NCBI RefSeq assembly: GCF_018698455.1
Contig: NZ_JABIOQ010000066.1
Span: 1 to 34,034, forward strand
Length of the DNA stretch: 34,034 nt
Reading direction: 5' to 3'
Source: Sulfurimonas sp.
GTDB taxonomy: Bacteria; Campylobacterota; Campylobacteria; Campylobacterales; Sulfurimonadaceae
In this document: in pieces, positions 4,622 to 34,034 of the stretch
Numbering within the stretch: position 1 is the stretch's first letter
Layout of the letters: each line of letters opens with the position of its first letter
Program-made: the position numbers and the translations under genes
The notes under the pieces: model-generated
The model's database searches: none
What the model saw: only the letters and a program-made list of their open reading frames with translations
What the model was told of the DNA's origin: nothing

Positions 4622-4643
4622 TATTTTCCTTTTATTCGCATAT

Positions 4644-4692
4644 AAGAAGTTTATTGTGTATATCGGACATCTTTATGTCTGGAAAACTTCTT
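4644..4692. repeat. Nested inverted repeat upstream of the four-gene operon
   Basis: AAGAAGTTT (4644-4652) and AAACTTCTT (4684-4692) are perfect inverted copies. Between them GGACAT and ATGTCT form an inner stem around CTTT. The structure begins 22 bases upstream of the ATG of the first operon gene, so it lies in its promoter or leader. It could be an operator or a leader hairpin. Confidence 0.45.
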
Positions 4693-4863
4693 GCTAGCTG
4701 TTATTTTAAATTTATTTATACTAGTGTTTTGTTAATCTGTCTTTAAAATAATTAATTCATACCCTGGAGATATTAGCTACAACCAAACTTTACTTATCTG
4801 TAATATAGTTCAGTAATTGGAATGTCACCAATAAACTAGACAGTGATACATTCAACAATCTCT

Positions 4864-4925
4864 TACTTTTGGAACACGAAGCACTCATATTAGTTTCCCG
4901 TGCTCCACAAAGTGTTCAAAAAGTA
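4864..4925. repeat. 14-bp inverted repeat with inner stem
   Basis: TACTTTTGGAACAC (4864-4877) pairs with GTGTTCAAAAAGTA (4912-4925) at 13 of 14 positions. An inner AGCAC/GTGCT pair supports a two-part stem. No ORF overlaps it. It could be a terminator-like or recombination structure; its role is unknown. Confidence 0.4.
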
Positions 4926-5072
4926 AAAACTACAAAGTTCCATAAACCTTAAGGGATTATTGAACAAAAGAAGTGAGCTTTTTACTTACATTTTCAACAC
5001 TTTCTTCACAAAACATCATAGTCTTCATCATGCCAGGGGGAGATATAGTTTTTCATTTTACCCCTTTAAGTG

Positions 5073-5078
5073 TATAAT
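5073..5078 (+). promoter_or_regulatory. Probable -10 box of the ABC-F operon
   Basis: A perfect TATAAT lies 32 bases upstream of the ABC-F start, with a weak TTTTCA near 5050 as a possible -35. The coding start at 5111 follows an AAAAGAG Shine-Dalgarno-like stretch. Confidence 0.4.
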
Positions 5079-5110
5079 ACAACGAAAAGATAAATAATTA
5101 AAAGAGTCAT

Positions 5111-17872: not shown

Positions 17873-18379
17873 ATGCCATTATTAGACTCGTTTACAGTAG
17901 ATCACACAATTATGCCAGCTCCAGCAGTTCGTAAAGCTAAGGGAATGAAAACTCCAAGTGGGGATGATATTACTGTTTTTGACTTACGTTTTGTAAGACC
18001 AAATGAAGATATACTTTCAGAAAAAGGTATTCATACATTGGAACATCTTTTTGCTGGTTTTATGAGAAATCATTTAAATTCTAAAGATACGGAGATAATA
18101 GATCTTTCACCTATGGGTTGTAGAACAGGTTTTTACATGAGTGTACTTGGCGCACCATCTGAAGAGAGTGTGGCTAAGGCTTGGGCAGAGGCTATGCAAG
18201 ACGTTCTTGGAGTACAAGCACAGAGTGATATCCCTGAGTTAAATATTTACCAGTGTGGAACATATAAAATGCACTCACTTCAAGAGGCAAAAGATATAGC
18301 TTCAAACATTTTAAATAAAGACATTGACATCATGGATAATGATGCCCTTACTCTTGATTTAACAAAAGTAGACCAGTAA
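17873..18379 (+). CDS. luxS: S-ribosylhomocysteine lyase LuxS
   Basis: This 168-residue protein cleaves S-ribosylhomocysteine to homocysteine and DPD, the precursor of autoinducer-2, in the activated methyl cycle. Metal ligands His54 and His58 ([10 protein letters not shown]), the catalytic Cys83 (MGCRTGFY) and Cys128 (YQCGTYKMH) are all in place, and the length is normal. The start is supported by AAGGAA 6 bases upstream. A TATAAT at 17853 is too close to the start to leave a full leader. The methyltransferase gene follows within ten bases. Confidence 0.97.
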
Positions 18380-18388
18380 CCCTCGCAA

Positions 18389-19132
18389 GTGTTTGACAGT
18401 AAACTCCATACAATGACTCTGAGTGAAGATGGCTCTTATACAGCCTATTCAAAAGAGTATGAAGAACATTACCACTCGACAAGAGATGGGGCACTTCATG
18501 AGTCTCTTGTCAAACATGTTATTCCTGCGTTTAATGTGATAAAGGAAGACGAAGTAAATATCTTAGATATTTGTTACGGACTCGGATTTAATACCCTTGC
18601 AACATTACTACATTGTAAAAGAAATTTCCCAAATAAAAAGTTAAATATTTACTCCCCTGAACTTGACACATTACTTGTGAAATCACTAGAAAATTTTACC
18701 TACCCTCCAGAATTTGATGAGTTTAGAGATGTTATTTTAACTCTCTCACGAGAAGGTGTGTGTAAAGATAAAAATATTTCCATAGAAGTTTTTTTAGGTG
18801 ATGCCCGAGAGTATATTAAAAAGTTTGAGAACAAGTTTGACATAGTCTACCAAGATGCTTTTTCCCCTAGCACAAATCCAATGCTATGGACGCAGGAATA
18901 CTTTGCGGATATAAAAAAGAGTATGAAGCAAAATAGTATTTTAACTACATACTCCATTGCATTCGCAACTAGACTTGCCCTATATAAGAATGGATTTTTT
19001 CTTTATATAAATCGTGGAGATGGTTTTCGAGATGCTACTGTAGCTTCTTTGCATGAGTTAAGCGAGTTTTACAAAGTTGATATGGAACATAAAATATCAT
19101 GTAATAAAGATGCCCAACCACTCAGGGATTAA
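18389..19132 (+). CDS. mnmD: tRNA 5-methylaminomethyl-2-thiouridine methyltransferase domain protein (MnmD-like)
   Basis: This 247-residue protein matches the methyltransferase half of MnmC (DUF752), without the oxidoreductase half. It finishes the wobble uridine of certain tRNAs using S-adenosylmethionine. Visible features are the N-terminal LSEDGSYTAYSKEYEEHYHS signature, the SAM-binding motif ILDICYGLGFNTLA, and the catalytic-region YQDAFSPSTNPMLWTQEYF. It starts with GTG at 18389, ten bases after luxS; the next ATG would cut into the conserved N terminus. The ribosome binding site is weak, so it may depend on read-through from luxS. Confidence 0.85.
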   Translation: MFDSKLHTMTLSEDGSYTAYSKEYEEHYHSTRDGALHESLVKHVIPAFNVIKEDEVNILDICYGLGFNTLATLLHCKRNFPNKKLNIYSPELDTLLVKSLENFTYPPEFDEFRDVILTLSREGVCKDKNISIEVFLGDAREYIKKFENKFDIVYQDAFSPSTNPMLWTQEYFADIKKSMKQNSILTTYSIAFATRLALYKNGFFLYINRGDGFRDATVASLHELSEFYKVDMEHKISCNKDAQPLRD

Positions 19133-19158
19133 AAATCGACTCGATAAAAGTAGATACT

Positions 19159-20067
19159 TTAAAACAGCTCTAACAGCTTTACCCCAATGAAAATAACCCC
19201 TAAAAAAATCAAAGAGGAGATAAAAACTAACGCCGTCACGACTTTAGCATTGCACTCATAAAGTGATGCAAGATTTACATTAGCGACTGCTAGTGGCATA
19301 AGAAGTTCTATAAATACTATACCTTTTATCATCGGGTCTATCGAGAGAGGGTAGAGCACGCAAAACGCGAGGAGAGGTAAAAGGACAAACTTGAAAATCA
19401 TAACCCAAACCAGCAATTTTTTACTCAGTTCTTTAACTTTTGTGCCATAAAGATAGATACCAAATAAAAAGAGTTGCATTGTCATAGAAGCATAAGCTCC
19501 CATCATGAGCATATTTAAAATAGAAGAGTGAATGCTCACTTCATAAACACTTAAAAGAATGGCAATGATGGTTGCCCAGAGGATTGGTAGTTTGATTATG
19601 TTAAGTAGGGAAGTCTTAGTATCGTAAGTTCCACGGGAGTAAAAGTATACACCAATAGTGTAAACTACAAATACATTGACAAGATTGACTATGGTCGTAT
19701 AGGGGATAGAATCCTCTCCAAAAATGGCAATGTTTAGAGGAATCCCTAAATTTCCTGTATTTCCTATGATAGCAGCAACAGTTGCAATAGAGTATTCTTT
19801 TTTGTTTTTAAAGAGATATCTTGCAAAAAATGCAGAAATGAGTAAAAGAACCAGGACAATAAAAAGATAGATGGAAGGGGCATAGAGTAAAGAAATATCT
19901 ACAGGACGAATCAAGAGACCCCAAAATGTTAAAAAAACTTGTAAGAAATAGACATTGATGAGAGTAATGGTTTTATCATCAATTTTCTCTTTAAAACTCA
20001 TTTTAGCGAGATAACCCATCACAATAAAAACATAAATGCTTAATATACTAAATATAATTGAACTCAT
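19159..20067 (-). CDS. AEC-family (auxin efflux carrier-like) transporter
   Basis: This 302-residue protein is almost wholly hydrophobic with about ten transmembrane helices. The Asn-rich GNTGNLGIPLNIAIFGEDSI motif near residues 106-125 and PLAVANVNLASLY near the C terminus are typical of bacterial AEC permeases for carboxylates or malate. The substrate is not clear. It is transcribed away from the thioredoxin gene, with only 24 bases between the two starts, and no Shine-Dalgarno sequence is seen before its ATG. Confidence 0.85.
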   Translation of the reverse strand: MSSIIFSILSIYVFIVMGYLAKMSFKEKIDDKTITLINVYFLQVFLTFWGLLIRPVDISLLYAPSIYLFIVLVLLLISAFFARYLFKNKKEYSIATVAAIIGNTGNLGIPLNIAIFGEDSIPYTTIVNLVNVFVVYTIGVYFYSRGTYDTKTSLLNIIKLPILWATIIAILLSVYEVSIHSSILNMLMMGAYASMTMQLFLFGIYLYGTKVKELSKKLLVWVMIFKFVLLPLLAFCVLYPLSIDPMIKGIVFIELLMPLAVANVNLASLYECNAKVVTALVFISSLIFLGVIFIGVKLLELF

Positions 20068-20086
20068 AGGCTAATTTTACTATAAT
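20058..20086 (+). promoter_or_regulatory. Promoter for a probable leaderless thioredoxin transcript
   Basis: TTGAAC (20058-20063), a 17-bp spacer and a perfect TATAAT (20081-20086) place the transcription start at about 20092-20094, on the start codon itself. No Shine-Dalgarno sequence is present. Confidence 0.55.
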
Positions 20087-20091
20087 TTTAT

Positions 20092-20409
20092 ATGCAAACA
20101 CTAGAAAATATAAATAAAACAATAAAAGAAAATATAGCAGTAATGGTTTACTTCTCGGCACCAACTTGTAATGTTTGTCATGCCTTAAAGCCAAAGTTAC
20201 TAGAGGCACTTGATGAAAATTTTAGTGAGTTTAAAGTAGAGAGTGTAGATATTTCTATTGATGAAGACATCGCACCGCATTTTGGTATTTTCACTATTCC
20301 TACGGTACTTATCTTTTTAGACTCAAAAGAGTTTGTACGTAAGTCTAGAAATATGAGTGTGAATGAACTCATGAAAGAGATACAGCGTCCTTATGAGATA
20401 ATGACTTAA
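20092..20409 (+). CDS. Thioredoxin-family protein
   Basis: This 105-residue cytoplasmic protein has the thioredoxin layout: a strand with YFSAPTCNVCHALKP holding the redox pair Cys26-Cys29, a central helix, the VDISIDEDIAPHFGIFTIPT segment with the cis-Pro and a C-terminal helix. The usual Trp before the first Cys is replaced by Pro-Thr, and the CNVC centre differs from CGPC. It is therefore a thioredoxin-like protein rather than the main thioredoxin. A promoter only six bases before the ATG and the lack of a ribosome binding site suggest leaderless translation. Confidence 0.85.
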   Translation: MQTLENINKTIKENIAVMVYFSAPTCNVCHALKPKLLEALDENFSEFKVESVDISIDEDIAPHFGIFTIPTVLIFLDSKEFVRKSRNMSVNELMKEIQRPYEIMT

Positions 20410-20432
20410 GAGTTTCATATGTCAACAAATAG

Positions 20433-20438
20433 TATAAT
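20433..20438 (+). promoter_or_regulatory. Probable -10 box of the PAS-chemoreceptor operon
   Basis: A perfect TATAAT (20433-20438) lies 25 bases before the PAS gene start. AAGG at 20454-20457 is six bases upstream of the ATG. Confidence 0.5.
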
Positions 20439-20463
20439 ATTTAAAATTTTATTAAGGTAAAGT

Positions 20464-20973
20464 ATGAACAAAGTCAAACTGATTAATAATGAGAAGTTTC
20501 TTTCGGACGATGAATTTATCGTCTCTAAAACTGATAAACATGGAAAAATATTATATGGAAATAAGATTTTCATAAAAATATCAGGATATGAAGAGCATGA
20601 GCTTTTAGATAAGCCCCACTCCATACTAAGACATCCAGACATGCCAAGTTGTGTTTTCAAACTATTATGGGAGAGACTACAAGCGAAGCAAGAGATATTT
20701 GCTTATGTAAAAAACCTAGCCAAAGATGGATCTTTTTACTGGGTATATGCAAATGTAACAGTTACTCTGAACAAAAATGGTGGAGTAGTTGACTTACACT
20801 CTGTCCGAAGAAAGCCATCTTCAAAAGCGATGGAAGTGATACCGGGACTTTATAAAGCCTTACTTGCCCAAGAGAAGAAAGCAGGCATAGACAGTGGAAC
20901 TAAGATGCTTATGAATATACTAAATGACAAAGGAGTATCATATGACGATTTTATCTTCGATTTACAAAACTAA
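20464..20973 (+). CDS. PAS-domain protein (Aer/CetB-like energy sensor)
   Basis: This 169-residue soluble protein is mainly one PAS domain. [19 protein letters not shown] and [17 protein letters not shown] form the start of the fold. [21 protein letters not shown] is the typical Aer-type FAD-binding PAS C-terminal strand. There is no kinase or effector. The gene overlaps a chemoreceptor gene that lacks a periplasmic domain. This resembles the Campylobacter CetB/CetA pair, where a PAS protein senses the redox state for a separate receptor. Binding of FAD is an inference from family. Confidence 0.8.
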
Positions 20974-22414
20974 GCAGACATTAGCTCTCTATGTAATTCT
21001 CCTTTTTATAGTTGTTTATTTTATAGTTATAGATGAATTTTTAATAGCAGGTGTACTATTTATTTTTATGGCCATAACGACACTTCTTTCGTTAAGAGAG
21101 AATGAAACATGCGAAAAGATTTTTAATGATCCAATAGTAAGACAGATAAGAGATGTTCTTTTAAAAGCGGGTAAGGGCGAACTCTCGTATAGAATAACAC
21201 ATATTGATGATGAGCATACCATGCATGATGTTGCTTGGGGTGTAAATGATCTACTAGATCAAGTCGAACAATATATGCGTGATGGAAAAGCAGCTATTGA
21301 GAATGCAAACAAGGGGCATAGAAATAGAATTGTTCCACCCCGTGGATACAAAGGTGATTTTGCAACGGCAGTACCTTCTCTTAACACGGCAATTCATTCT
21401 ATCTTCCTTTCTTATAAAGGTGCACAAGCTAAATCACTTTCAGAGATATTTGAGAATAATAGTAAGGGTGGTGTATCCCGCGGATTGTCAATTATTCAAG
21501 AAGATATTATAACAAACTTGGATGTTGTAAACGAGATAGCCATAAGAACTAAAGAAACATTTAGCGAAGTGGTTGAATCAAGGGATGTGATTCAAAACAT
21601 CACCTCAAGTCTAGATGAACTTATCACACTCATAACAAACTCCAATGACTCAATCTCTATGTTGAGTGAAAGAACTAATGACATTACTGCTGTGGTAGAA
21701 TTGATTAAAGATATTGCAGAACAAACAAATCTACTTGCATTAAATGCGGCTATAGAAGCTGCCCGTGCGGGTGAACATGGACGAGGTTTTGCCGTTGTCG
21801 CCGATGAGGTGAGAAAACTTGCAGAACGAACACAAAAAGCGACACAAGAGATAGCTATAACTACAAACAGTTTAAAGCAAGAAGCAAATGATATACAAAT
21901 GAATTCGGACAAAGTGACAAGCTTAGCTACTGGTTCTCAAGAGGATGTAGAAAATTTCCATAATACACTAGAGAGATTTTCTCTCAATGCAGATAAATCT
22001 GCAAACCAGTCTGAAAATGTACATAATTCACTCTTTACAAGCTTGGCAAAAGTTGATCATATTATTTTTAAGCATAAGGCTTATGTAGCAATATTTCATG
22101 GAGATAAAGATAACTTAGAATTCTTGGGCGATCATCACTCTTGTAGATTAGGAAAGTGGTATGATAATGATAGCGATCAAGCTAAAGAAAGATTTGGAGC
22201 TACAAAAGCTTACAAAGAGATACATGTACCGCATGAAAAAATTCATACAAATATACTGAGAACATTGGAATGTGTTGAAAAGGGAAATTGTACATCTCCT
22301 GAAAATAGAGATCAGATAATCTTATCTATGAAAAATGCAGAAGAGGCTAGTTTTGAACTCTTTGAATTATTTCAAAAAATGGTAGCAGAAGCGAATCCAT
22401 CACTTAAAGCATAA
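20942..22414 (+). CDS. Methyl-accepting chemotaxis protein with CZB domain (CetA-like)
   Basis: This 490-residue membrane chemoreceptor has an N-terminal hydrophobic hairpin ([17 protein letters not shown] and [18 protein letters not shown]) with almost no periplasmic loop. A HAMP-like region follows, then the signalling hairpin with the highly conserved tip [20 protein letters not shown]. The C terminus is a CZB domain ([28 protein letters not shown]) with the His/His/Cys/His zinc set that senses zinc or oxidants. I choose the ATG at 20942 because AAAGGAG lies six bases upstream; a longer start at 20924 has no such site. The gene begins 32 bases inside the PAS gene, so the two are co-translated. 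Its end overlaps the convergent rlmB-like gene by 11 bases. Confidence 0.9.
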
Positions 22415-23153
22415 ATGCAATTAGTGATGCAGTTACTGCAACATTAAGTGATTCTACTCCGCGTTTCATAGGAATTTGGAGTGATTCATTACATAAGTCT
22501 TCGACTTCTTTACTAACACCTTCACTTTCATTTCCAAGAACATAGATACTTCTCCCAGTAGGCTTAACATCATAAATACTTTGTTTTGCATGAGATGAAA
22601 GAGAATAAATTTGAGTATCTTTTACTTTTGCGAGTACATCTTCAAGTGCATCACAGAAGTAGATAGGAAGTTTAAAAAGTGTTCCCGCACTTGCTTTTAT
22701 AACTAGAGGAGAGATTTTTGCAGAGTTCTTTTTAGGAAGAATGAGTCCATCAATATTTCCAGCCGCACAACTCCTTATAATCATTCCTAAGTTTTGAGGA
22801 TTTTGAATGCCATCAAGTGCAAGAAGTCTGTACGAATTGAGTTCTAAGATTGCCGTCGCATTTGAGTAAGATTGAGAAATAATATCTATACAAACACCTT
22901 GGTCTTGTTTTGCATTTTTACTAATTCTACTTAAAGCACTTTTAGTGTGGTAAGAGATTTCAATATCGCGCTTTTGTGCAAGTGCTAGTATCTCTTTGAT
23001 ATTTCCATCAGTTTTGTTTGAGTCAGCCATATGCAGCTTATGAATTTCAACACTTGTATCCTGCAAAACTTCTATAACCACATTTCTTCCGTAGAGAGTG
23101 ATTATTTTCTCAAAAAACTTTTTTTTATCTTTATATTCTTGTGAATCTTGCAT
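22404..23153 (-). CDS. rlmB: SPOUT-family 2'-O-methyltransferase (RlmB/TrmH-like)
   Basis: This 249-residue protein has an N-terminal substrate-binding domain ([11 protein letters not shown]; residues ~20-95) and a C-terminal SPOUT knot domain. The knot carries the three conserved motifs: [32 protein letters not shown] and [17 protein letters not shown]. This matches RlmB, which 2'-O-methylates a guanosine in 23S rRNA. Related TrmH or RlmB-like enzymes acting on tRNA are possible. A plausible ribosome binding site AAAGGT precedes the ATG. The 3' end overlaps the chemoreceptor gene. Confidence 0.88.
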
Positions 23154-23257
23154 TGTATATACCTTTGTAATGATAAATGCAATGTTATCACAAATAGGAT
23201 TTATATCTAAAGAAAATAGATTTATTTGATAACACTTAGCTATAGTTTTTCTAAAAA

Positions 23258-25513
23258 TTAGCCTTTTGTATTGTGTTTGAATACACCGTTAAAGTCAACT
23301 GGAGGCATATCTATATAGTGTTCACATCTTTGTATATAGATGCCATAAATATTTTTATTAGATTTATCTGGCCAACTTTCTAACTCATTAAAAACAAGTA
23401 GAGCATCTTCAAAATTTTTATTTTTATAGAGGTCTATACCTTTATGATAGTAATCAAGCTCATCTAATAATCTCTCTTTGGAAGCTTTATATAGTGGATT
23501 TCCTTCCCATTTCATTGGTATTGCTTGATAGTCTACAATTTGCCAAATTTCAACAGGAACTGATTGCCCCTTAACGGTTACCAGGTCTAAAAATCTAAAT
23601 ATATATTTTCCCTTTGGTATTTTTTCTTTTACATAAATTGAAATATTACATGATGAGTTGTAGTATTTACATAAAGATTCAAGTCTTGCACCAAGGTTAA
23701 CGGGGTCTCCAATAACAGTATAGTCACTTCTACCACTACTCCCCATTTCACCAACAACGCCAACTCCAACATTAATTCCAATGCCAATTTCTATGGGTTC
23801 TACTCCATTGTCTGCAGCTAAATCACATATAGCTTTATATCTATCGTCTAACTTTAGTTTTGCATTTAATGGTTTAAGAGCATGGATCTGGTCAAGTGTT
23901 GCATCAACAGCTTTTTCGACATGATTTTTTACAAGAACGGGAGCATTCCAGTATGACATGATGGCATCGCCAATGAACTTGTCAACAGTGCCTTCGTACT
24001 TCATAATTATTTGAGTCATTTCATCCATATACTCATTTAAAAACTGTATAAGTAAACGTGCACCTCCAGCCACTTCGGATATGTTTGTGAAATTTCTAAT
24101 GTCGGAGAATGTTACTGTAATTTCATGTTCCTTGGCAATAAAAGTATTGCCTTTATCGGCAGCTCTTTTCATGATGTCCTCCATAACTTGAGGTGAAACT
24201 TTAGAAGCAAACTTTCCTTTAATGAGATTTTTTTGTTTTGTTTCTAGAAAATAGTTAACAATTATGGAGACTAGTGCCCCAAAGACAAGAGCAAAAAGTG
24301 GATAAAATAGAGTGAGAATTATACCTTCGACAAAAAGCATGTAATTTACAAAATATATAAATGAAGCTCCTAATACAATTATAATGATAGGAAGCAGAAC
24401 GGCTCCACTATATCCGATGCTCATGACAACTATAATGGACATAATTAAAGTTATTGTTATGTTGTATGCACTTGCTTCAGCAGGAATATATAAAAAATCT
24501 CCCTTTAAGATATTGTCAATAACATTTGCATGGACTTCTACACCAGGATAAATAGAATCATAAGGGATGTTCCTTAAGTCCAAGAGTCCTGCTGCCGAAG
24601 TGCCTACAAGTGCTATTTTACCCTCTAACTCTTTTGGATCAACTCTATTTTTTATAATGTCAGCAGCGGAAATATAGGTAAAAGTATATGAGGGTCCTCT
24701 AAAGTTGACAGCTAGTCTTCCATATATATCTGTTGGAATGTTAAACTCCCCTAGCTCAATGTTTCGTACTCCTAGTTCATCATAATTTACAGTAAGTTTG
24801 TTGATTTGATGAACCGCCCTAATTAGCTCTAAGGCTAAAGATGGGTAAACAGACATGTCATAACTCATAGCCAAAGGAACACTTCTGATAACTCCGTCAG
24901 TATCAGGAGTGGCATTGAAAAATCCACTCGAATAAGAGTTATCTTGAATTATTGGAATATTTTTAATTACCCCTTTGGGCTGGAGGAGATGTTCAGTTTT
25001 CCCTTTGCCTTTTTGAGTAAATATCGCTGGGATATCGGGAGTTTCTACATCTAGATATTGTTGGTTCCCATTAAAATCAAAGGTATATCCCAAAATAGTT
25101 GGAGTTTGAGAAAGCACGGAAGCGAATATCTCGTCATAATCTACTTCCTTATCATCAGGGACTAAATCTTCTATACCTAAGTCATAAATTATTTTCTTTG
25201 GGCTTGATCGATCAGCCTCGGGAAACATAATATCAAATCCGACAGCTGCAATCCCATTTAGCGCTAAATTATAGACCATTGTGGCAATTTTATCTCTACC
25301 CCAAGGAAACTGGCCTATCTCATTTAATGATTTCTCATCAATATCAATAATAATGACTTGCCCTGTTGTTTCAATGGCACCACGATTAATAAATAGCATG
25401 TCTCTGAGTTTTTTGTCAATTGTGTCAAAGTGATTTGGCAGGTATAAGTATAATGAGGTAGAGAATAAAGCAACGGATATTGACAAACTAAAGTAGATAA
25501 GAAATTTTTTCAC
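23258..25513 (-). CDS. CHASE2-domain class III adenylate/guanylate cyclase
   Basis: This 751-residue membrane protein has an N-terminal transmembrane helix (residues ~4-25), a large extracytoplasmic CHASE2 sensor domain (~30-330), three or four membrane helices (~345-420) and a cytoplasmic cyclase domain (~440-620). The cyclase has the metal-binding Asp in TFSDIRNFTN, DKFIGDAIMSYWNAP with a lysine and second Asp, and YTVIGDPVNLGARLESL with the substrate-contacting region. It would make cyclic AMP (or GMP) in response to an external signal. A ~130-residue C-terminal tail follows with a TPR-like look. The start is GTG at 25513. It follows a small lipoprotein gene by 47 bases and is divergent from the Slam/FecR operon. 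Confidence 0.9.
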   Translation of the reverse strand: MKKFLIYFSLSISVALFSTSLYLYLPNHFDTIDKKLRDMLFINRGAIETTGQVIIIDIDEKSLNEIGQFPWGRDKIATMVYNLALNGIAAVGFDIMFPEADRSSPKKIIYDLGIEDLVPDDKEVDYDEIFASVLSQTPTILGYTFDFNGNQQYLDVETPDIPAIFTQKGKGKTEHLLQPKGVIKNIPIIQDNSYSSGFFNATPDTDGVIRSVPLAMSYDMSVYPSLALELIRAVHQINKLTVNYDELGVRNIELGEFNIPTDIYGRLAVNFRGPSYTFTYISAADIIKNRVDPKELEGKIALVGTSAAGLLDLRNIPYDSIYPGVEVHANVIDNILKGDFLYIPAEASAYNITITLIMSIIVVMSIGYSGAVLLPIIIIVLGASFIYFVNYMLFVEGIILTLFYPLFALVFGALVSIIVNYFLETKQKNLIKGKFASKVSPQVMEDIMKRAADKGNTFIAKEHEITVTFSDIRNFTNISEVAGGARLLIQFLNEYMDEMTQIIMKYEGTVDKFIGDAIMSYWNAPVLVKNHVEKAVDATLDQIHALKPLNAKLKLDDRYKAICDLAADNGVEPIEIGIGINVGVGVVGEMGSSGRSDYTVIGDPVNLGARLESLCKYYNSSCNISIYVKEKIPKGKYIFRFLDLVTVKGQSVPVEIWQIVDYQAIPMKWEGNPLYKASKERLLDELDYYHKGIDLYKNKNFEDALLVFNELESWPDKSNKNIYGIYIQRCEHYIDMPPVDFNGVFKHNTKG

Positions 25514-25831: not shown

Positions 25832-27163
25832 ATGAAAAAACTATTTATCTTGTTTTTTATCGCTTTTACGAGTTTAGCCTTTACATATGAACCCTCATAC
25901 GTAACCCCTCAGATAGATACCTACAATCAAGCCAAAGAACTTTTTAAAAACAAAAAGTACCAAAAGGCGTATGACTTATTTTATAAGCTTTTTGAAAAAA
26001 ACCTAGAAGATCCGAATATTAATTTTTATCTAGGAAGAAGTGCTTATATGTTACAACACTTTGAGTTAGCGATAGCTGCCTATGAAAGAGTTCTTATGAG
26101 TGATCCAAAATCCGTTAGATCAAACCTTGAAATTGCAAAATGTTATTTCGAGCTCAAAGACTACAAAGAATCAAAAAAAATATTTTTAGAAACTTTAAGC
26201 GATCAAATGCCAACGAATGTACAGCAAAATATTAGAATGTATTTAAAAGCATTAGATTCAAAAACTAAAAAAAACTTTATTAGTGGATCAGTAGTCCTAG
26301 GTCTTAATTATGACTCAAACATATATAGCCGTGCAAATGACGATATATTTACAATACCCGGAATTATAGACAACATCACAAATCAGCCCATAAAAACGAC
26401 AAACTCTACACCAGAAGCTTCTGGATACGCTCATCAACAAGCTGTTAGTCTAAATCATTTGTATAAGTTTGATAATGAAATTAACTTCAAGAATAATTTC
26501 GTATTTTTTGCAAAAACGATAGTTGAGCATCATAATAGAGATATTATGCTCGCCCAATACTCTCCAGCGGTCTCCGTCACCTACAATCACAATAAAATTT
26601 TAGTAGATTACGCTCTCTTGTTTAGTAAAATATGGTTAGGCTCGAAATCAACAATGACCTACTATGGTATCAACCCGAGATTAACGTATGTGTTCGATGC
26701 ATATAATATTTTGAGTTCCTCTTTTAAGTATCAAGAAAAAAATATCGTAACAAATACATCCCATATAACAGAACTTGATTTTTCCCTTAGACGAATACAG
26801 TCGAGTAAAACAACATTTTTATTTTATACGAGATTGGCAGCAGAGAGAAAAGTTTCAGATGGTTTACAAAACATAGACTCTGATTTGATAAATGTCGCCT
26901 TTTCTACATCGTATTGTTTTACACCTCTATTAAGTATAACTCCAAAGTTACAGTATTACATGAAGTGGTATAAGGATGAGGATGTTTTTTATGTAAAGAA
27001 GCAAGAAGACAAAGAACTTCAGTTTTTACTAAATTCGACTTATTCCATTAGTAAAAGTTCTTTATTTAGCATGGATTACTCATATATGAATCATATATCA
27101 AACATTCCATCGTGGGAGTTTAACAAACACTCTCTAACGGCTAACATCATCTTATTATTTTAA
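25832..27163 (+). CDS. Slam-like outer-membrane translocator: TPR plus DUF560-type beta barrel (type XI secretion)
   Basis: This 443-residue protein has a signal peptide (KKLFILFFIAFTSLAF), about three TPR-like helical units (residues ~25-140: YNQAKELFKNKKYQKAYDLF, FYLGRSAYMLQHFELAI, LEIAKCYFELKDYKESK) and a C-terminal ~290-residue beta barrel made of alternating aromatic strands ending in LTANIILLF. The strand start SVVLGLNYDSNIYSR resembles the Y-D-S-N-x motif at the start of the Slam (DUF560) barrel. This layout, with a periplasmic TPR arm and a barrel, is that of Slam translocators, which move cargo proteins across the outer membrane. I start at the ATG 25832, backed by AGGAA and the signal peptide; the upstream ATG adds 11 residues. 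The cargo-like gene follows after 11 bases. Confidence 0.75.
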   Translation: MKKLFILFFIAFTSLAFTYEPSYVTPQIDTYNQAKELFKNKKYQKAYDLFYKLFEKNLEDPNINFYLGRSAYMLQHFELAIAAYERVLMSDPKSVRSNLEIAKCYFELKDYKESKKIFLETLSDQMPTNVQQNIRMYLKALDSKTKKNFISGSVVLGLNYDSNIYSRANDDIFTIPGIIDNITNQPIKTTNSTPEASGYAHQQAVSLNHLYKFDNEINFKNNFVFFAKTIVEHHNRDIMLAQYSPAVSVTYNHNKILVDYALLFSKIWLGSKSTMTYYGINPRLTYVFDAYNILSSSFKYQEKNIVTNTSHITELDFSLRRIQSSKTTFLFYTRLAAERKVSDGLQNIDSDLINVAFSTSYCFTPLLSITPKLQYYMKWYKDEDVFYVKKQEDKELQFLLNSTYSISKSSLFSMDYSYMNHISNIPSWEFNKHSLTANIILLF

Positions 27164-27174
27164 AAGGCTTAAAT

Positions 27175-29115
27175 ATGAAAATATTAATATTGTTATTCTT
27201 ATTATCAGCAACACTTTTTGCGAATATAGGACAAATAAGCTCCTTAAGGGGCTCATGCATCATATCTAGAGATAATATGAAAATGGATGCTTCAATTGGG
27301 TTTAAATTAAAAGCAAAAGACGTATTAAACACTGGAAAGAAATCAAAACTACAAATAATTTTTAAAGATGGAAGTATCGTTACAATAGGTAAATCATCAA
27401 CATTTGACATAGCGGAGTATGTTTTTGACGCGGCATCTCCTAAGAAGTCCAAAGTTAACTTCGGATTTTTAAAGGGTTCATTTAAATCTATAACGGGTCA
27501 GATAGGTAAATTTGCACCTGAGAAGTTTAAGCTTAGAACTAAAACAGCGACAATTGGGATAAGGGGAACAACAGTAGTCGGTAACCAAGATAAAATAGCA
27601 TGTACATACGGAAAGATAAATGTAAGTTCTCATGGCGTTACTCGCTCTGTTCCTGCTGGAATGTTTTCTAAGACACCAAAAGAATCTCCACCGAGTGTTC
27701 CAGAAGTGTATGTAGCGGGTAGTATTGAAGCTGGTGACATTGAAGACTCGACAGAAGCTTCATCTGAAGAGGAAGAGGCAACAAGCGATTCCGAAGAAAC
27801 GGATGAAGGCGAGGTTCAAGACGAAGAACAAACGGATGAAGGCGAGGTTCAAGACGAAGAACAAACGGATGAAGGCGAGGTTCAAGACGAAGAACAAACG
27901 GGTGAAGGTGCAGTTGAGGGAGAAGAACAAACGGGTGAAGGTGCAGTTGAGGGAGAAGAACAAACGGGTGAAGGTGCAGTTGAGGGAGAAGAACAAACGG
28001 GTGAAGGTGCAGTTGAGAGAGAAGAACAAACGGGTGAAGGCGAGGTTCAAGACGGAGAACAAACAAGTGCTCAAGTAGAAGATGGAGGTAATCCGACTTC
28101 AGAAACGGAAGAGACAACGGAAGCAACTCCAGTTGCTGCCGCAGCTTCAGTTCCTCTTGCAAGTACTCCATCGACTGCCGATGAAGGGGAAGCAACAACT
28201 GGGCAAGAGCAATCGGAAGTGAATCCGACTTCAGAAACTGAAGATGTTTCATCGACAAAAGTTACTCCAACTGTAGCTGAAGAATCAGTTCCAGTTGCAA
28301 GCATACCATCCACAACTGATGAAAGCGATTACGATTCGGTGAGTGACCTTGAAGGTTCTGGAATTGATTCGACTTCTGTTAGCGAAGTGGGAACCGTGAT
28401 AGACACCTCTACAACACAAACTCAAGATACATCTTCAACTGAAGTAGGTGATACTCTGACCCAAGTTCAAGATAATGTGCAAACAGTTGAACAAGTAGTG
28501 CAAACTGACGCTAAAATAGTTACTGAAACGATAATTATAATTAGCGATTTATCCGTAGCAGATGTAACGAATGAAATTATTTCAACAAGTACTTTGGACA
28601 ATTTACAAATAGACACAGCGGACTTAACGAAAGTAAGTGCATTTGGAGATGCTTATTTGGAGTATGGCTACTGGGAAAGTGTCGATACTGGAGCTGCTGT
28701 TTACACTTATCTTAGTGGTATGCTAACTTCAAGTGAGACTGTTGATCAGATGATTGGACTAGCCCCAACAGCGACATATACTGGTGGACTTAGTGCAATA
28801 GTTACGGATCCTAATGGAGCCACTATAGCATCCGATGGAAGCGTAGTCTTAGATTTTGACTTTGTAAATCAAAGCTTCGCAGGTAACATAAATGTGACTC
28901 AGGGTGGTTTTAGTGCAGATGTCGCTGGAAATGTACATAAGTACGGATTTGACACGACTAGTGTCACTACTGCAACAAGTAGTACTGCAACAAACATCGC
29001 CGGAGACTTGAGTGGACAGTTTTACGGAACAAATGCCGAAGCGGCGGGAGGCTCGTTTAACTTGACGAGCGACAATGTGGGTAGTGTTAACGGCGTGTTT
29101 GGAGTCGCAAAATGA
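27175..29115 (+). CDS. Exported FecR-domain protein with acidic repeats and TbpB-like C-terminal barrel
   Basis: This 646-residue protein has a signal peptide without lipobox (ILILLFLLSATLFA). A FecR-like beta domain spans ~20-150 (GQISSLRGSCIISRDN; DGSIVTIGKSSTFDI; TATIGIRGTTV). A low-complexity acidic linker (~175-470) holds eight 11-residue repeats. The C-terminal ~170 residues look like an eight-stranded TbpB-type barrel: YLEYGYWES, VVLDFDFVNQSFAGN, GFSADVAGNVHKYGF and, at the end, FYGTNAEAAGGSF and GVFGVAK. That barrel is the part recognised by Slam translocators in transferrin-binding protein B and similar cargo. The gene lies 11 bases downstream of a Slam-like gene, and its stop overlaps the next start (ATGA). 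The cargo assignment is an inference but well supported by context. Confidence 0.7.
   Translation: MKILILLFLLSATLFANIGQISSLRGSCIISRDNMKMDASIGFKLKAKDVLNTGKKSKLQIIFKDGSIVTIGKSSTFDIAEYVFDAASPKKSKVNFGFLKGSFKSITGQIGKFAPEKFKLRTKTATIGIRGTTVVGNQDKIACTYGKINVSSHGVTRSVPAGMFSKTPKESPPSVPEVYVAGSIEAGDIEDSTEASSEEEEATSDSEETDEGEVQDEEQTDEGEVQDEEQTDEGEVQDEEQTGEGAVEGEEQTGEGAVEGEEQTGEGAVEGEEQTGEGAVEREEQTGEGEVQDGEQTSAQVEDGGNPTSETEETTEATPVAAAASVPLASTPSTADEGEATTGQEQSEVNPTSETEDVSSTKVTPTVAEESVPVASIPSTTDESDYDSVSDLEGSGIDSTSVSEVGTVIDTSTTQTQDTSSTEVGDTLTQVQDNVQTVEQVVQTDAKIVTETIIIISDLSVADVTNEIISTSTLDNLQIDTADLTKVSAFGDAYLEYGYWESVDTGAAVYTYLSGMLTSSETVDQMIGLAPTATYTGGLSAIVTDPNGATIASDGSVVLDFDFVNQSFAGNINVTQGGFSADVAGNVHKYGFDTTSVTTATSSTATNIAGDLSGQFYGTNAEAAGGSFNLTSDNVGSVNGVFGVAK
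27799..28062 (+). repeat. 33-bp tandem repeats, eight copies, in the FecR-cargo gene
   Basis: Eight 11-codon units: three TDEGEVQDEEQ, three TGEGAVEGEEQ, one TGEGAVEREEQ and one TGEGEVQDGEQ. The three copies within each of the first two types are identical in DNA. Unit length is a multiple of three, so gain or loss keeps the frame. Confidence 0.9.
28090..28326 (+). repeat. Second, degenerate duplication in the acidic linker
   Basis: Two ~100-base units, starting at 28090 and 28222, each encode NPTSETE, then a Thr-rich stretch, then SVP-AS-PST-DE. They are about 132 bases apart and share exact stretches such as ATCCGACTTCAGAAAC. Confidence 0.65.
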
Positions 29116-32100
29116 AAAATATAATATTAAAATTACTTGTCCTATTCTCTATCTCTCAGGTTTCACTTTTTTCGGCTGAACTAAGTTTAAAAGCTCATGG
29201 TGGAGTTGCTCAATTTAATGGGAATACAAGTGTAGTTTCTATAGCCGATAGTCCTCTTTTAGATATTTCTTCAAATATAACTTTGGAAGCATGGATATAT
29301 ATGGATGAACAAATTCAATTTAATCATGTAATTACAAAATGGAATACGGCAACAAATGACCGTAGTTATCAGCTACAAATTTTAAACAACAAAGTTAATT
29401 TTTCTACTTCACCAAACGGAGACAATGCAGATACTCTAGAAGGAATATCAACTTTACAAACTGGACAATGGTATCATATTGCAGCAGTATATGATGGAAG
29501 CGAAAAGAGAATTTATCTTAATGGACAATTAGATGGAAACGTATCAAGTACTGGGTTACTCTTTAATTCTACTGCTCCTTTAGTTCTAGGAGGCCATGAC
29601 CTTAACGCGACTTCTTTTGTTGGAACACTTAAAGGTGAACTTGATGAAGTAAAGGTTTGGAATACAGCTAGAACTTCTGCAGAGATAAATGCAACAATAA
29701 ATCATCAGTTAGATGGAAATGAAACAGGACTAGTAGCTTATTATAACTTTGATGAGAGAGTAGGGAAAACGGTTAAAGATATAACTTCAAACAATCTTGA
29801 CGGAACGATTAGTGGAGATGTGACTCGTCTGAATTTTTTAGGTGATGGACTTGTTTTTGATGAGATTGACAACAATAGTAGTACTATTACAGTTGCAGAA
29901 AGTAATGTTTTAGACTTAAACACTACTTTCACTATTAATACATGGTTTAAAACTAATGAAGACTCATCAACTGGTATACAGCAACTAGTTAATAAATATA
30001 ATGAAGAATTGGGGGGTTATGCTATTGGCCTAGTAAATATAGGTGGAGAACAAAAGATTGAAGTAGCGATTAGCCCTGATGGGACAAACAAAACTACCGT
30101 TAATAGTTCGTCAAATATAAATATTGGTCAGTGGTATCACTTAAGCATAGTAAGTGATGGCTTAAATATTCAAATTTATCTCAATGGTAAATTAGACAAG
30201 ACGGCAGCTTATAATCAAGGGCTATTTCAAAATAATATTGATTTAAAAATCGGTGCAAATATTATTGATACTGAAGTATTTAATGGAAGTATCTCAGAAG
30301 TTTCCATCTTTAACAGAGTGATATCTCAAAATGAGATAATACATAACATGCATACTTCTCTAAAAGGGGACGAAACTGGACTAGTTGGTTACTGGCCACT
30401 AAACGAAGGTTCCGGGCTAGTGGCGAATGACAGAAGCTTAAGTGCCAATAATGGAGTTATAAGTCTAGCTGCTTGGTCGGAAAATGCACCAATTCTCTAT
30501 GGGGATAAGCTTTATACGACAGATGCTATGGATACCTTTCACAAACTCTTTGTTGAAAACAATACAAGTAGCCCTACTTACAGTTATAACGGAAGTATTC
30601 CCTCTACTCTTCGGAATTTTGATGGAACAACTGGAACTTTTTTATATACAGCTGATGGAACGGCTGGAGAAGTACTTGATTTTAACGCAAGCGATGGAAT
30701 AGACTTAAATAAACTAGTAAATGTTCAAGCTTATGTGAATCCATATAGCACACAGTTTAACTTAACAAATGTAAACTTGTCAGACCATAATATTACAAAT
30801 ATGCAACTCATTAAAACTGATGGAAATACCGACAGTTTCAATATTCAAGGCTCAGAAGCTTTATCCGATGGGGTGAACAACTTAAGCACTCTAGTTTACA
30901 ATAAGGATAATAACTTTAGTATTAGATTCGACGTTAATAACTCTGGGGTAGAAAATAGCTACTACTATAATTTTCCTAATTCTACATTTGATTCCGATGT
31001 TATATATAACTCGTCATTAGCTAACTCGTCATTAGCTAACTACAAAACTATAATAAACGCAACGACGAATACATTCGACATCGATGCTAACTCGACAACT
31101 TTTTTTTCTGCTTTGGACCTTCACTTTAATTTTGAAGGGAATACATCACTTGTTATTAATAATAATGCGATTATTCAAAGCCACCTTGATGGATATACTA
31201 TCATGGACTCAGCACTCCAACCTATTCTAAATACAAGCTTAGATTATAATAAAACATTTGCACATAAATCAAGCTCTCAAACTCTATCTACCAATATATC
31301 CATTTTTATGCCGGGAGTCTTGTGGGAGACGAATATATACAGGAAAGTTAAGGCGACAGAAGATATATTTGTAAGCGATGTGAATGTATCCTTTTCAAAT
31401 ATTACCGTGAATTTAGATGAGCAAAACCTTGACTCTATTGATTTCAAAAATAGTGATGGCGGTTATACTCGCTATAAGATTACAGATAGTCAAATCGCAG
31501 GTACAAGCTTTACCATTCCTTTGATTACTGATGCTTCTTATGAAATTGTCGCTACTTACTCAGACTTAAATAAGTCAGTATACGATTCTGGTAGTGGAAA
31601 CTGGTTACCTTTTGGTGAAAGTGCCGATCACTTTATTGCGACAGATGGACTTGTCTTGCCTGATATACCTGTTAGTGCACCTAGAAAACCAACTCTAAAA
31701 GTTACAAACAACCTTACTCAGTATTTAGGAAAATGGGATACTACCGACTATACATATGGAGTAACGCTATCAAGTGATGGCACAAAAGCTTATGTTGCCG
31801 ATAATATAAATGGATTAGCCATTATAGACATTACAAATCCTACTGCTCCAGTTACTCTTGGAACACTACCTACTAATGGTTCAGCAAGGAGTGTTGTTCT
31901 TTCAAAGGATGGAACTATTGCTTACATTGGGGATTGGGAGAATGGACTTGTAATCGTTGATGTTTCAAATCCAATCTCCCCCGAAGTGCTGGGAACATTT
32001 GATACGAGCGGCAAAGCCGCTTTTGTGAGTTTATCAAGTGATGGGACTAAAGCATATATAGCTGACTATACGAAGGGATTAGTAATAGTTGATATAAGTG

Positions 32101-34034
32101 ACCCTATGGCACCAGTAGAAGTAGGTTCGTATCCAACAGGTGAAAGTTCATTCATACAACCAGAAGTAGAAGGTTCGCCCAATAGTCTAGAAGTTAGAAT
32201 CTCAAACGATGAAACTAAAGCTTATCTTGCCGACGCAAACGGACTATTTGTTATAGATATAAGCAGTCCGGCAACTTCTACTCCTTTATCACCGATTTTA
32301 GAGATGCCTTATAACGCTGTAACATTGTCTAGCGATGATACTATAGCATATCTTTCAAGTTCTTATGGTGTTGACATTTTCGATATTAGTGATCCAAGTA
32401 ATCCAATTTTTTTATCAACTTTTGACACGAATGAAAATACTTTGGGAGTCACTCTTTCGGGTGATGGTTCTAAAGCTTATGTTTCAGTTGGTCATGGAGG
32501 AATAGTGATACTAGACATTACGAATCCTACCGAAGAACCGGTTCTTTTATCAACATTAAAGACTACTGGAAGAGTATCCGAAATTGCTTTGTCGGATGAT
32601 GAAACAAAAGCATATGTTGCAGATAGTGCAGGTGGTTTAGTAATTATAGACATCGCAAACATTGAATCTCAGCTTTTGCCGGGATCATTTGAAAGCGTTG
32701 GAAATGTTAGAGGTCTTACTCTTTCAGATGACGGTACAAAAGCATATGTTGCAGCTAATCATGATGAAACAGCTTCTAATAATGGGTTTAAAGTTCTAAA
32801 TATTTCAAGTCCTAGCACACCAGGACTTATGGATTATGTTCCTACTGAAAATGCTTATGGAGTGGCAGTATCAAATGACGGGACAAAAGCGTATGTCGTA
32901 GGTACAAATGGATTGGTCATTCTTGATATAAGTAATCCAACCGGGGTATTGCAGATTGGAACCTTTGACACAAATGGAGTAGTTTATAAGGTTGTCTTAT
33001 CTACGGATGGAACGACCGCTTATATAGCTTATGACGGTGGATTAGCTATACTAGATATTACAAACCCAAGCATACCAATAATGTTAGGTTCATATGATAC
33101 ACAAGGCTCTGCTACTAATATTGTACTCTCAGATGATGGGAGAAAGGCTTACATCTGTGCTTCTGAGAGTGGTTTAGTAATATTGGATGTCTCAAATCCA
33201 GCTACTCCTACTTGGTTGCCAACTTATGCTTTAGACTATCCTGAAGCAGTCGCTCTCTCCGATGATGGGACAAAGGCTTACATTACCGATAACTTAGGTA
33301 TGACTACTCTCGACATTACCGGCATTAACCCTCCTAGTCTAATATCAAATTTCCATACATCTAGTAAAGCTTTTGGGGTTAGATTGTCAGATGATAACAC
33401 AAAGGCATACATTAATCTTGATAAAAAGGTAAGTGTAATTGATGTAACTATTCCAAGTAGCCCTATAGAAATAGCATCTTATAGTACGAAAGATACTAGT
33501 GATATTGTATTGTCAGAAAATGGAACGAAGATTTATGTCGCTGATGGTGCTAATGGTTTAGTTATACTAGATACTAATCTTAACTTGCACCTAAATAAAA
33601 ATTTTGCAGATACAAACATTACTCTGGAGATAGACGACTTAGACCAGAGTAGCTTAACTCTTAACATAGACATGAACGATACTTCGATTATTACTCTTGG
33701 CGATTATAATCAAAGTCTAGTTTATAATGACTACAACAATACTCAACTCACAATACCAATACAGCCCATAGCGGATAAGCTTGGTTCTACAAGAGTGGAT
33801 GTAAATATTAGCGATGGTACTTATTCGGTACTTAAAAGTTTTAACATTAAAGTGTTTGACCAAACTTTTCCTCCAACTTTAAGTGCTATCGCTGATATAA
33901 ACACAAGCGAAGACTTCAGCGACTTTAACATAACGGTAAACGCGACGGATACAGATGGTGACGTAATCACTTACTCAGTAGGCTCAAGCGACATCAATAT
34001 TTCAACTGTGACAATGGTGGGAAATGTAATCGTG
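29112..34034 (+). CDS. Giant exported multidomain surface protein (LamG, LVIVD propellers, cadherin-like), 3' end outside window
   Basis: The frame is open from the ATG at 29112 to the window end, at least 1641 codons. It has a signal peptide (LKLLVLFSISQVSLFSA). Two concanavalin-like LamG/LNS domains follow: residues ~32-225 (ITLEAWIYMDEQ; WYHIAAVYDGSEKRIYLNGQ; GELDEVKVWNTART) and ~240-440 (FTINTWFKTN; QWYHLSIVSDG; SEVSIFNRV). A threonine/asparagine-rich beta region runs ~440-870, then fourteen LVIVD-type repeats ~873-1492, then Asp-rich cadherin/Ig-like modules (DLDQSSLTLNIDMND; NTSEDFSDFNITVNATDTDGD). This is the make-up of large adhesins or surface-layer proteins. It overlaps the FecR-cargo gene by four bases (ATGA), so it is the third gene of the Slam operon. 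It may need its own export route; no type I secretion or anchor signal is visible in this part. Confidence 0.8.
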   Translation, partial: MKNIILKLLVLFSISQVSLFSAELSLKAHGGVAQFNGNTSVVSIADSPLLDISSNITLEAWIYMDEQIQFNHVITKWNTATNDRSYQLQILNNKVNFSTSPNGDNADTLEGISTLQTGQWYHIAAVYDGSEKRIYLNGQLDGNVSSTGLLFNSTAPLVLGGHDLNATSFVGTLKGELDEVKVWNTARTSAEINATINHQLDGNETGLVAYYNFDERVGKTVKDITSNNLDGTISGDVTRLNFLGDGLVFDEIDNNSSTITVAESNVLDLNTTFTINTWFKTNEDSSTGIQQLVNKYNEELGGYAIGLVNIGGEQKIEVAISPDGTNKTTVNSSSNINIGQWYHLSIVSDGLNIQIYLNGKLDKTAAYNQGLFQNNIDLKIGANIIDTEVFNGSISEVSIFNRVISQNEIIHNMHTSLKGDETGLVGYWPLNEGSGLVANDRSLSANNGVISLAAWSENAPILYGDKLYTTDAMDTFHKLFVENNTSSPTYSYNGSIPSTLRNFDGTTGTFLYTADGTAGEVLDFNASDGIDLNKLVNVQAYVNPYSTQFNLTNVNLSDHNITNMQLIKTDGNTDSFNIQGSEALSDGVNNLSTLVYNKDNNFSIRFDVNNSGVENSYYYNFPNSTFDSDVIYNSSLANSSLANYKTIINATTNTFDIDANSTTFFSALDLHFNFEGNTSLVINNNAIIQSHLDGYTIMDSALQPILNTSLDYNKTFAHKSSSQTLSTNISIFMPGVLWETNIYRKVKATEDIFVSDVNVSFSNITVNLDEQNLDSIDFKNSDGGYTRYKITDSQIAGTSFTIPLITDASYEIVATYSDLNKSVYDSGSGNWLPFGESADHFIATDGLVLPDIPVSAPRKPTLKVTNNLTQYLGKWDTTDYTYGVTLSSDGTKAYVADNINGLAIIDITNPTAPVTLGTLPTNGSARSVVLSKDGTIAYIGDWENGLVIVDVSNPISPEVLGTFDTSGKAAFVSLSSDGTKAYIADYTKGLVIVDISDPMAPVEVGSYPTGESSFIQPEVEGSPNSLEVRISNDETKAYLADANGLFVIDISSPATSTPLSPILEMPYNAVTLSSDDTIAYLSSSYGVDIFDISDPSNPIFLSTFDTNENTLGVTLSGDGSKAYVSVGHGGIVILDITNPTEEPVLLSTLKTTGRVSEIALSDDETKAYVADSAGGLVIIDIANIESQLLPGSFESVGNVRGLTLSDDGTKAYVAANHDETASNNGFKVLNISSPSTPGLMDYVPTENAYGVAVSNDGTKAYVVGTNGLVILDISNPTGVLQIGTFDTNGVVYKVVLSTDGTTAYIAYDGGLAILDITNPSIPIMLGSYDTQGSATNIVLSDDGRKAYICASESGLVILDVSNPATPTWLPTYALDYPEAVALSDDGTKAYITDNLGMTTLDITGINPPSLISNFHTSSKAFGVRLSDDNTKAYINLDKKVSVIDVTIPSSPIEIASYSTKDTSDIVLSENGTKIYVADGANGLVILDTNLNLHLNKNFADTNITLEIDDLDQSSLTLNIDMNDTSIITLGDYNQSLVYNDYNNTQLTIPIQPIADKLGSTRVDVNISDGTYSVLKSFNIKVFDQTFPPTLSAIADINTSEDFSDFNITVNATDTDGDVITYSVGSSDINISTVTMVGNVIV
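31011..31040 (+). repeat. 15-bp tandem duplication in the giant surface gene
   Basis: TCGTCATTAGCTAAC occurs twice in tandem (31011-31025 and 31026-31040) and encodes SSLAN-SSLAN. It is in frame and looks like a recent slippage event. Confidence 0.8.
31728..33585 (+). repeat. Fourteen LVIVD-type repeats, predicted two seven-bladed propellers
   Basis: Repeats spaced about 45 residues apart each have the pattern S-D-D/G-T-K-A-Y-V/I-A-D followed by L-V-I-L/V-D-I-S-N-P. I count fourteen such LVIVD strands between 31814 and 33557, for example LAIIDITNP, LVIVDVSNP and LVILDISNP. Fourteen would give two seven-bladed beta-propellers. Confidence 0.7.

Follow-up and report, generated by a model that had tools for sequence, protein, structure and literature searches.

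The window analysed here is the whole of a 34,034-base contig (NZ_JABIOQ010000066.1, contig C15) from a 2.23-Mb Sulfurimonas sp. genome in 76 contigs (GCF_018698455.1). It encodes a candidate type XI secretion pair, comprising a Slam-like TPR-barrel protein (P0001, encoded at 25832-27163) and a FecR-domain protein ending in a TbpB-type barrel, beside a CHASE2 adenylate cyclase. The genes ran in the order CHASE2 cyclase (reverse strand), Slam-like protein, FecR-TbpB protein and giant LamG/LVIVD protein (all three forward). The nearest named relative of the locus was a Sulfurimonas metagenome-assembled genome (MAG; L079), with 61% identity for P0001. The features were as follows.

23258-25513, reverse strand: CHASE2 sensor with class III adenylate/guanylate cyclase, 751 amino acids, divergent from the Slam-like gene (Pfam)
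25832-27163, forward strand: Slam-like (DUF560-related) outer-membrane protein, 443 amino acids (PF04575 link via distant homologues)
25910-26266, forward strand: TPR helices, residues 27-145 (Pfam TPR, AlphaFold2 helices)
26273-27157, forward strand: predicted 14-strand barrel, residues 148-442 (AlphaFold2; CymA/OmpG fold matches)
27175-29115, forward strand: FecR-domain protein with C-terminal TbpB-type cargo domain, 646 amino acids (Pfam)
27319-27585, forward strand: FecR domain, residues 49-137 (PF04773)
27793-28064, forward strand: linker of acidic repeats, a 33-base unit in 8.2 copies (Tandem Repeats Finder)
28624-28767, forward strand: pedestal strands and linking helix, residues 484-531 (model; TbpB C-lobe alignment)
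28768-29112, forward strand: eight-strand TbpB-type barrel, residues 532-646 (PF01298, AlphaFold2, Foldseek)
29112-34034, forward strand: giant LamG and LVIVD-repeat protein, running off the contig end (Pfam, reading of the open reading frame)

The Slam-like open reading frame (ORF) started with an ATG at 25832, stopped at 27161-27163 and was separated by 11 bases from the FecR-TbpB ORF (ATG at 27175, stop at 29113-29115), as given in an initial annotation made from the sequence alone. The giant ORF overlapped the FecR-TbpB stop by 4 bases and is possibly the third gene of an operon. On the opposite strand, the cyclase gene lay 318 bases upstream of the Slam-like gene. A scan for promoters and terminators gave counts not above those of shuffled sequences, within their spread.

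The FecR-TbpB protein had been described as a FecR domain with acidic repeats, a signal peptide without lipobox and a TbpB-like end, and each part was borne out. Pfam matched FecR at 45.2 bits (PF04773, cut-off 24) and TbpB_B_D at 34.9 bits (PF01298, cut-off 26) over residues 550-645; the protein contained FYGTNAEAAGGSF and GVFGVAK, and its signal peptide held no cysteine and no lipobox. AlphaFold2 modelled residues 472-646 as three pedestal strands (13-20, 24-31 and 37-44 in model numbering), a helix (49-58) and eight strands, with a predicted local distance difference test (pLDDT) score of 92.8 and a predicted template-modelling (pTM) score of 0.86. A YxxxGYW pattern in the three pedestal strands ahead of the barrel aligned to the TbpB C-lobe. 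A single-sequence search of the Protein Data Bank (PDB) was weak (best E 0.13), with all five matches being NHBA (Gna2132) or TbpB, and a profile of 20 homologous C-termini (A5) reached TbpB at 4.4e-19, NHBA at 3.4e-14, LbpB at 3.5e-7, hemophilin at 3.1e-5 and chains of the fHbp type at 0.036-0.21. Every one of the 43 PDB sequences that A5 listed was named TbpB, NHBA/GNA2132, LbpB, hemophilin/haemophore, fHbp or plain 'lipoprotein', the last of which we take to be fHbp. Among the best 50 Foldseek matches listed for the modelled barrel, NHBA came first (1.2e-8), followed by TbpB, LbpB and fHbp. At E<=0.01, 18 of the 20 A5 members matched TbpB_B_D and four matched FHBP_C, and an iterated C-terminal profile picked up only FecR-containing ORFs in the fetched loci. 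NHBA is a Slam cargo or Slam-type surface protein. The same is described for TbpB, LbpB, hemophilin-like proteins and fHbp in the available text of PMC8406197 and PMC12282271. The motif reading of a TbpB-type cargo end is correct and more than chance. Regulation of the FecI/FecR/FecA kind was also considered and rejected: neither an extracytoplasmic function (ECF) sigma factor nor a TonB receptor was recognised beside the FecR gene, by eye among the surrounding ORFs, with Pfam run on four proteins only.

P0001 scored above cut-off for Pfam TPR families, placing a TPR domain at its N terminus. Its AlphaFold2 model, built from 24 sequences (pLDDT 90.6, pTM 0.67), predicted helices at residues 27-145, followed from 148 to 442 by 17 strand segments. 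By our count these make up 14 strands of a barrel and a single hairpin in a loop, if 272-280 and 283-287 are treated as a single strand. The best solved matches of this barrel were CymA and OmpG (Z 20.4-22.4, root-mean-square deviation 3.1-3.9, 229-275 residues), both 14-strand barrels. Both barrels anticipated by the initial annotation, 14-stranded in P0001 and eight-stranded in its partner, were thus obtained in the models. The Y-D-S-N that had been taken as the barrel start was found at residues 160-163, with Y160, D161 and N163 invariant in the 22 sequences of alignment A1.

The relationship of P0001 to Slam ran through intermediates. Its distant homologue L019 (genome G075), 28% identical with an E value of 1.8e-30 over residues 26-440, matched PF04575 at 52.9 bits covering 4-288 of 288, and L059 matched at 51.9 bits. 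PF04575 was found above cut-off in 23 of 151 genomes of the family and in none of 14 controls, at the same place as the P0001 match in at least 15 of the 23 genomes; bridging homologues above the cut-off were 21-31% identical to P0001. Eight of the 24 members of alignment A4 matched PF04575 at E<=0.01. Fold searches with P0001 listed generic outer-membrane barrels and TPR proteins, PelBC and BcsC among the Foldseek matches, and no Slam among the 50 matches listed by each search, an absence that carries no weight against a Slam relationship. Judged by sequence, P0001 is Slam-like and DUF560-related through intermediate sequences, with a putative translocator role. The initial identification as a Slam held as far as the distant homologues and the 14-strand model; P0001 itself had no PF04575 match at E<=1, and its Slam membership is indirect because it reaches PF04575 via distant intermediates.

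Recurrence of the pair was evaluated in 35 loci drawn from P0001 or PF01298 matches, 23 named loci (some on the same contigs) and the window, a non-random sample, picked by similarity to P0001 or PF01298, with some near-copies left. P0001 had matches at E<=1e-4 in 47 of the 151 family genomes, many of the weaker ones in the TPR region only. A FecR gene lay within 300 bp on the same strand beside 46 of 53 distinct Slam-like genes, and this partner carried the cargo barrel in 30 of the 53, so that the predicted pairing does recur in Campylobacterota relatives. The seven others comprised two with more distant FecR genes (L021 at 317 bp, L052 at 870 bp), three at contig ends (L058, L068, L072), one broken (L070) and L074, which was taken as a TPR protein unrelated to the Slam-like set. 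Counted by FecR protein, the barrel was present in 33 of 49 distinct sequences, two of them partial (L053 was cut by the stretch end, and L066 matched profile positions 44-100 only). PF01298 matches came from 14 genomes: nine of the 151 in the family and seven of the 150 in the phylum, with two shared. A Slam-like gene adjoined the PF01298 protein in 13 of these, the fourteenth (L127) being cut by a contig end, and the barrel was carried by a FecR protein in 12 and by an OmpA-domain protein in one (L129). The A5 profile found 19 places in 17 of the 151 genomes, and at 17 of these places a Slam-like gene was no more than about 1.2 kb away. L128, from another family, repeated the layout of the window with divergent cyclase, Slam-like gene, FecR-TbpB gene and a giant ORF with a 4-base overlap, and consecutive genes for a Slam-like protein, a FecR-barrel protein and a cyclase were present in MAGs from Desulfobacula (L100) and Pseudomonadota (L095).

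Two variants of the pair were also seen. At L057 (8853-11138), two tandem FecR-barrel proteins followed one Slam-like gene, ahead of a cyclase. In L129, from another Campylobacterota genome, the protein at 3394-6329 joined an OmpA domain (52.4 bits) to a TbpB-type barrel (36.7 bits) behind a lipobox-like start, and its gene overlapped the Slam-like gene by 4 bases; it could be a second envelope-spanning cargo.

The initial annotation viewed the locus as secretion only and overlooked the cyclase found beside the Slam-like gene and its cargo here and in many relatives. In the window, this protein matched CHASE2 at 191 bits and Guanylate_cyc at 59 bits. A CHASE2 cyclase occurred within 8 kb of 30 of the 53 Slam-like genes, and proteins with PDEase_II (cyclic AMP (cAMP) phosphodiesterase class II) and GAF-HD proteins lay near the cyclase in several relatives. 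Searches of the genome turned up two genes each for FecR and CHASE2, one pair in the window and the other on contig C57, where this second set, which also includes a GAF-HD protein, occupied 18000-24254 (L013). Against 72,556 plasmid records, P0001 gave two matches at E<=1e-5, from Shinella and Paracoccus, each in an operon where genes for a FecR protein and a CHASE2 cyclase accompany one for a TPR (or unnamed) protein. The FecR proteins of these plasmids had sub-threshold TbpB_B_D and FHBP_C matches near the C terminus, and A5 did not reach E 0.01. An apparent FecR-CHASE2 fusion at L065 (8795-12061), from which a periplasmic FecR would have followed, was dropped, as its translation crosses an assembly gap (X residues) and then appears to shift frame before the cyclase start; L065 was counted as unreadable for the barrel.

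We propose that the locus encodes a signalling module running from the cell surface to cAMP, with a type XI-like pair as its two outer parts, and judge the case for it evenly balanced. The TPR-barrel protein would sit in the outer membrane, where it would recognise the TbpB-type barrel at the C terminus of its FecR partner and expose that part to the outside. The periplasmic FecR domain would act on CHASE2 in the inner-membrane cyclase, such that an outside cue would change cAMP. We infer that P0001 translocates its neighbour, that FecR contacts CHASE2 and which part ends up outside. In favour of this model are the domains, the predicted folds, the recurrent linkage and the precedent of NsrA and CyaK. 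In a more tentative version, the Slam-like barrel might hold its cargo half-exported, with the TbpB-type barrel outside and FecR in the periplasm on the CHASE2 cyclase, and the fate of the exposed end might set cAMP. The type XI reading of the pair is largely but indirectly supported, and the pair lies inside or beside a known, unexplained cAMP cluster, which suggests that export machinery like that with which some pathogens show proteins on their surface may have been recruited into a surface-sensing system.

Several results weigh against this reading. In addition to P0001 itself, its closest homologues (G149, G011 and G121; 47-60% identity) were not among the PF04575 matches in the family search, the Slam-like proteins of L128 and L129 had no PF04575 match at E<=0.01, and TPR_Slam reached 21.4 bits in P0001, below its cut-off of 35.2. 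No cyclase was found within 8 kb of 23 of the 53 Slam-like genes, some of them on contigs that end, and this included seven loci (L014, L017, L020, L052, L071, L083 and L086) for which the fetched stretch spanned 14-19 kb. Among the five nearest to the window on the tree (L079, L015, L017, L014 and L083), only L015 showed a cyclase within its fetched stretch, 8.7 kb away. Two genomes had a barrel match though they lacked a P0001 match at E<=1e-4: in G069 the match lay where a contig ends and contained a stop, and G040 had no Slam-like gene and carried a FecR gene next to a cyclase split over two ORFs. In Sinorhizobium meliloti, three Clr-target genes, among them a FecR gene close to cyaD1, were dispensable for signal perception according to the available text of PMC5498481, and we found no experiments on the present system in the literature searched. 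Finally, 12 complete FecR partners had no barrel although the Slam-like gene was present (16 of the 49 FecR proteins lacked it, of which L061, L067 and L094 were cut by contig ends and L065 was unreadable). On a tree of 48 Slam-like proteins, with several long branches and the unreadable L065 as one barrel-less row, the barrel label needed at least 6-7 changes, gain and loss not being distinguished. Among the 12 genomes with barrel-less partners, only G017 had an A5 match, at its other Slam-like locus. It is possible that the barrel-less partners carry a diverged barrel that went undetected. With their Slam-like genes kept, they are otherwise the main sign that the Slam-like protein may do more than export, and they would fit a receptor unit whose displayed barrel is an optional outer part.

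The same observations bear on three other explanations. The pair may simply be a type XI secretion system that carries the FecR-TbpB protein in its entirety to the cell surface or into the medium, like a hemophilin-like soluble cargo, with the cyclase tied to it by regulation or history only. This fits the several closest relatives of the window that show no nearby cyclase and the resemblance of the giant neighbour to a surface protein; moreover, soluble (SPI) one-barrel cargo is known as the subcluster 1B type (PMC8406197), and Slam1 passes unfolded TbpB into proteoliposomes, with a C-terminal motif proposed as recognised (PMC9090332), according to the available text of both papers. It sits less well with the linkage to a cyclase, seen in 30 of 53 cases and also on two plasmids from alphaproteobacteria, and with the barrel-less FecR partners that keep a Slam-like neighbour. 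The FecR domain also tells against it, being a periplasmic signalling domain in FecR itself, and a periplasmic signalling role is likewise described in the available text of PMC5498481. We regard simple export as somewhat unlikely. Because the closest homologues of P0001 are without a PF04575 match and mostly without a nearby cyclase, we nevertheless raised its probability and lowered that of the surface-to-cAMP model.

The TPR barrel could instead be a surface receptor of the NsrA kind that exports nothing, with the TbpB-type domain as a folded periplasmic docking domain. The protein beside cyaK, whose identity as NsrA is taken from place and length, combines FecR and TPR with a weak barrel match in a single chain, and both the barrel-less partners with their Slam-like genes and the label changes on the tree agree with such a receptor. 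The solved relatives of the cargo barrel are, however, surface or secreted proteins, and the Slam profile misses the protein beside cyaK at E<=0.01, making this explanation distinctly unlikely in our view. That the TPR barrel is another TPR-porin, for example a polysaccharide exporter such as BcsC or PelB, and its pairing with a TbpB-type barrel coincidental, we consider highly improbable. PelBC and BcsC did appear among the Foldseek matches, and P0001 and its closest homologues had no PF04575 match, but distant homologues matched this profile end to end, the neighbour bore a cargo-type barrel in 30 of 53 cases, and none of nine scanned neighbours was a polysaccharide synthase, no further search having been made. 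Should the surface-to-cAMP model be true, type XI export would be joined to second-messenger signalling. The model also suggests, in testable form, how CHASE2 cyclases could be reached by signals from outside, and it directs type XI work towards free-living organisms.

The giant proteins beside the FecR genes had in common a conserved domain at the C terminus, about 215 residues long (NGYTYISLPSSKTLC...ESYWV), and differed in their repeats, which included GLUG, RCC1, PKD and others. By sequence comparison the domain was present in L079 (5406-9560), L080 (10235-14470) and L014 (2442-9023), and in a weaker version in L128 (2205-7538) and L020 (4977-9110); in L079 it had no Pfam match at E<=0.01. 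Like the window, L082 and L128 had a giant ORF with the same 4-base overlap. The LamG/LVIVD giant of the window is cut by the contig end, so its C terminus lies outside the sequence. Contig C57 ends in a giant piece with the same conserved C-terminal domain, which could be the far end of the giant of the window; the two contig ends shared no 16-mer. Elsewhere in the window, adjoining reverse-strand ORFs at 2909-3217 and 3239-4621 had similar beginnings by eye, as if by tandem duplication.

A Campylobacterota cluster of cyclase, phosphodiesterase, 'FecR' and 'TPR' proteins was already reported in mBio in 2022 (PMC9239204), and from its available text we take the window cluster to be this CHASE2 cyclase cluster. 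Both have a CHASE2 cyclase, a cAMP phosphodiesterase, a FecR protein and a TPR protein together. The main text of that paper mentions neither 'Slam' nor 'TbpB', and the type XI reading is what is added here: we propose a type XI identity for the FecR and TPR genes of the cluster, two unexplained genes that would be a type XI-like translocator and its cargo. The initial annotation had further supposed that the pair extends type XI secretion to free-living Campylobacterota. The pair is indeed from Campylobacterota, but the step is smaller than supposed, as Slam relatives were found in all proteobacterial clades including epsilon by psi-blast in 2017, with epsilon left out of the neighbourhood set (PMC5449769), and free-living and marine type XI clusters have been described (PMC8406197, PMC12282271), going by the available text of these papers. 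In the main texts of the latter two, 'FecR' and 'Campylobacter' do not occur, nor does 'cyclase' in PMC8406197 or 'adenylate' in PMC12282271. In the open-licence PMC papers searched, we found no link between type XI export and second-messenger signalling.

Compared with Slam1 and TbpB or with HrpB and HrpC (hemophilin-like), the window likewise encodes an outer-membrane protein with TPR and a predicted 14-strand barrel beside a protein with a C-terminal eight-strand TbpB-type barrel, and this partner, as in subcluster 1B, has no lipobox. Unlike these pairs, the partner has a FecR domain and acidic repeats, its barrel is sometimes absent among relatives, a CHASE2 adenylate cyclase is the neighbour, the host is a member of the Campylobacterota and the outer-membrane protein is linked to PF04575 only distantly. 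A FecR gene beside a CHASE2 sensor is shared with the Burkholderia BiofilmReg operon (LysM-FecR and CHASE2 histidine kinase; PMC5192318), which differs in its kinase output and, in the available text, has no outer-membrane barrel described. The NsrA system of S. meliloti offers another comparison. In the available text of PMC7529298 and PMC13001267, NsrA is an outer-membrane barrel protein needed to relay a plant signal to CHASE2 cyclases, and the former describes it as the outer-membrane receptor for CyaK. In the pSymB record, cyaK adjoins a 1190-residue FecR and TPR protein (L116) with a weak barrel match near its end, which we infer from place and length to be NsrA; it has no matched TbpB-type domain. 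NsrA with CyaK, CyaD1 and CyaD2 shares with the window a FecR domain, TPR and an outer-membrane barrel together with a CHASE2 cyclase, the barrel being a predicted one in the window, where these parts are encoded together. The relay is experimental in S. meliloti and proposed for the window, and FecR and barrel are in one chain in the NsrA-type protein and in two in the window. By analogy, we liken the window system to NsrA and do not file it under that name.

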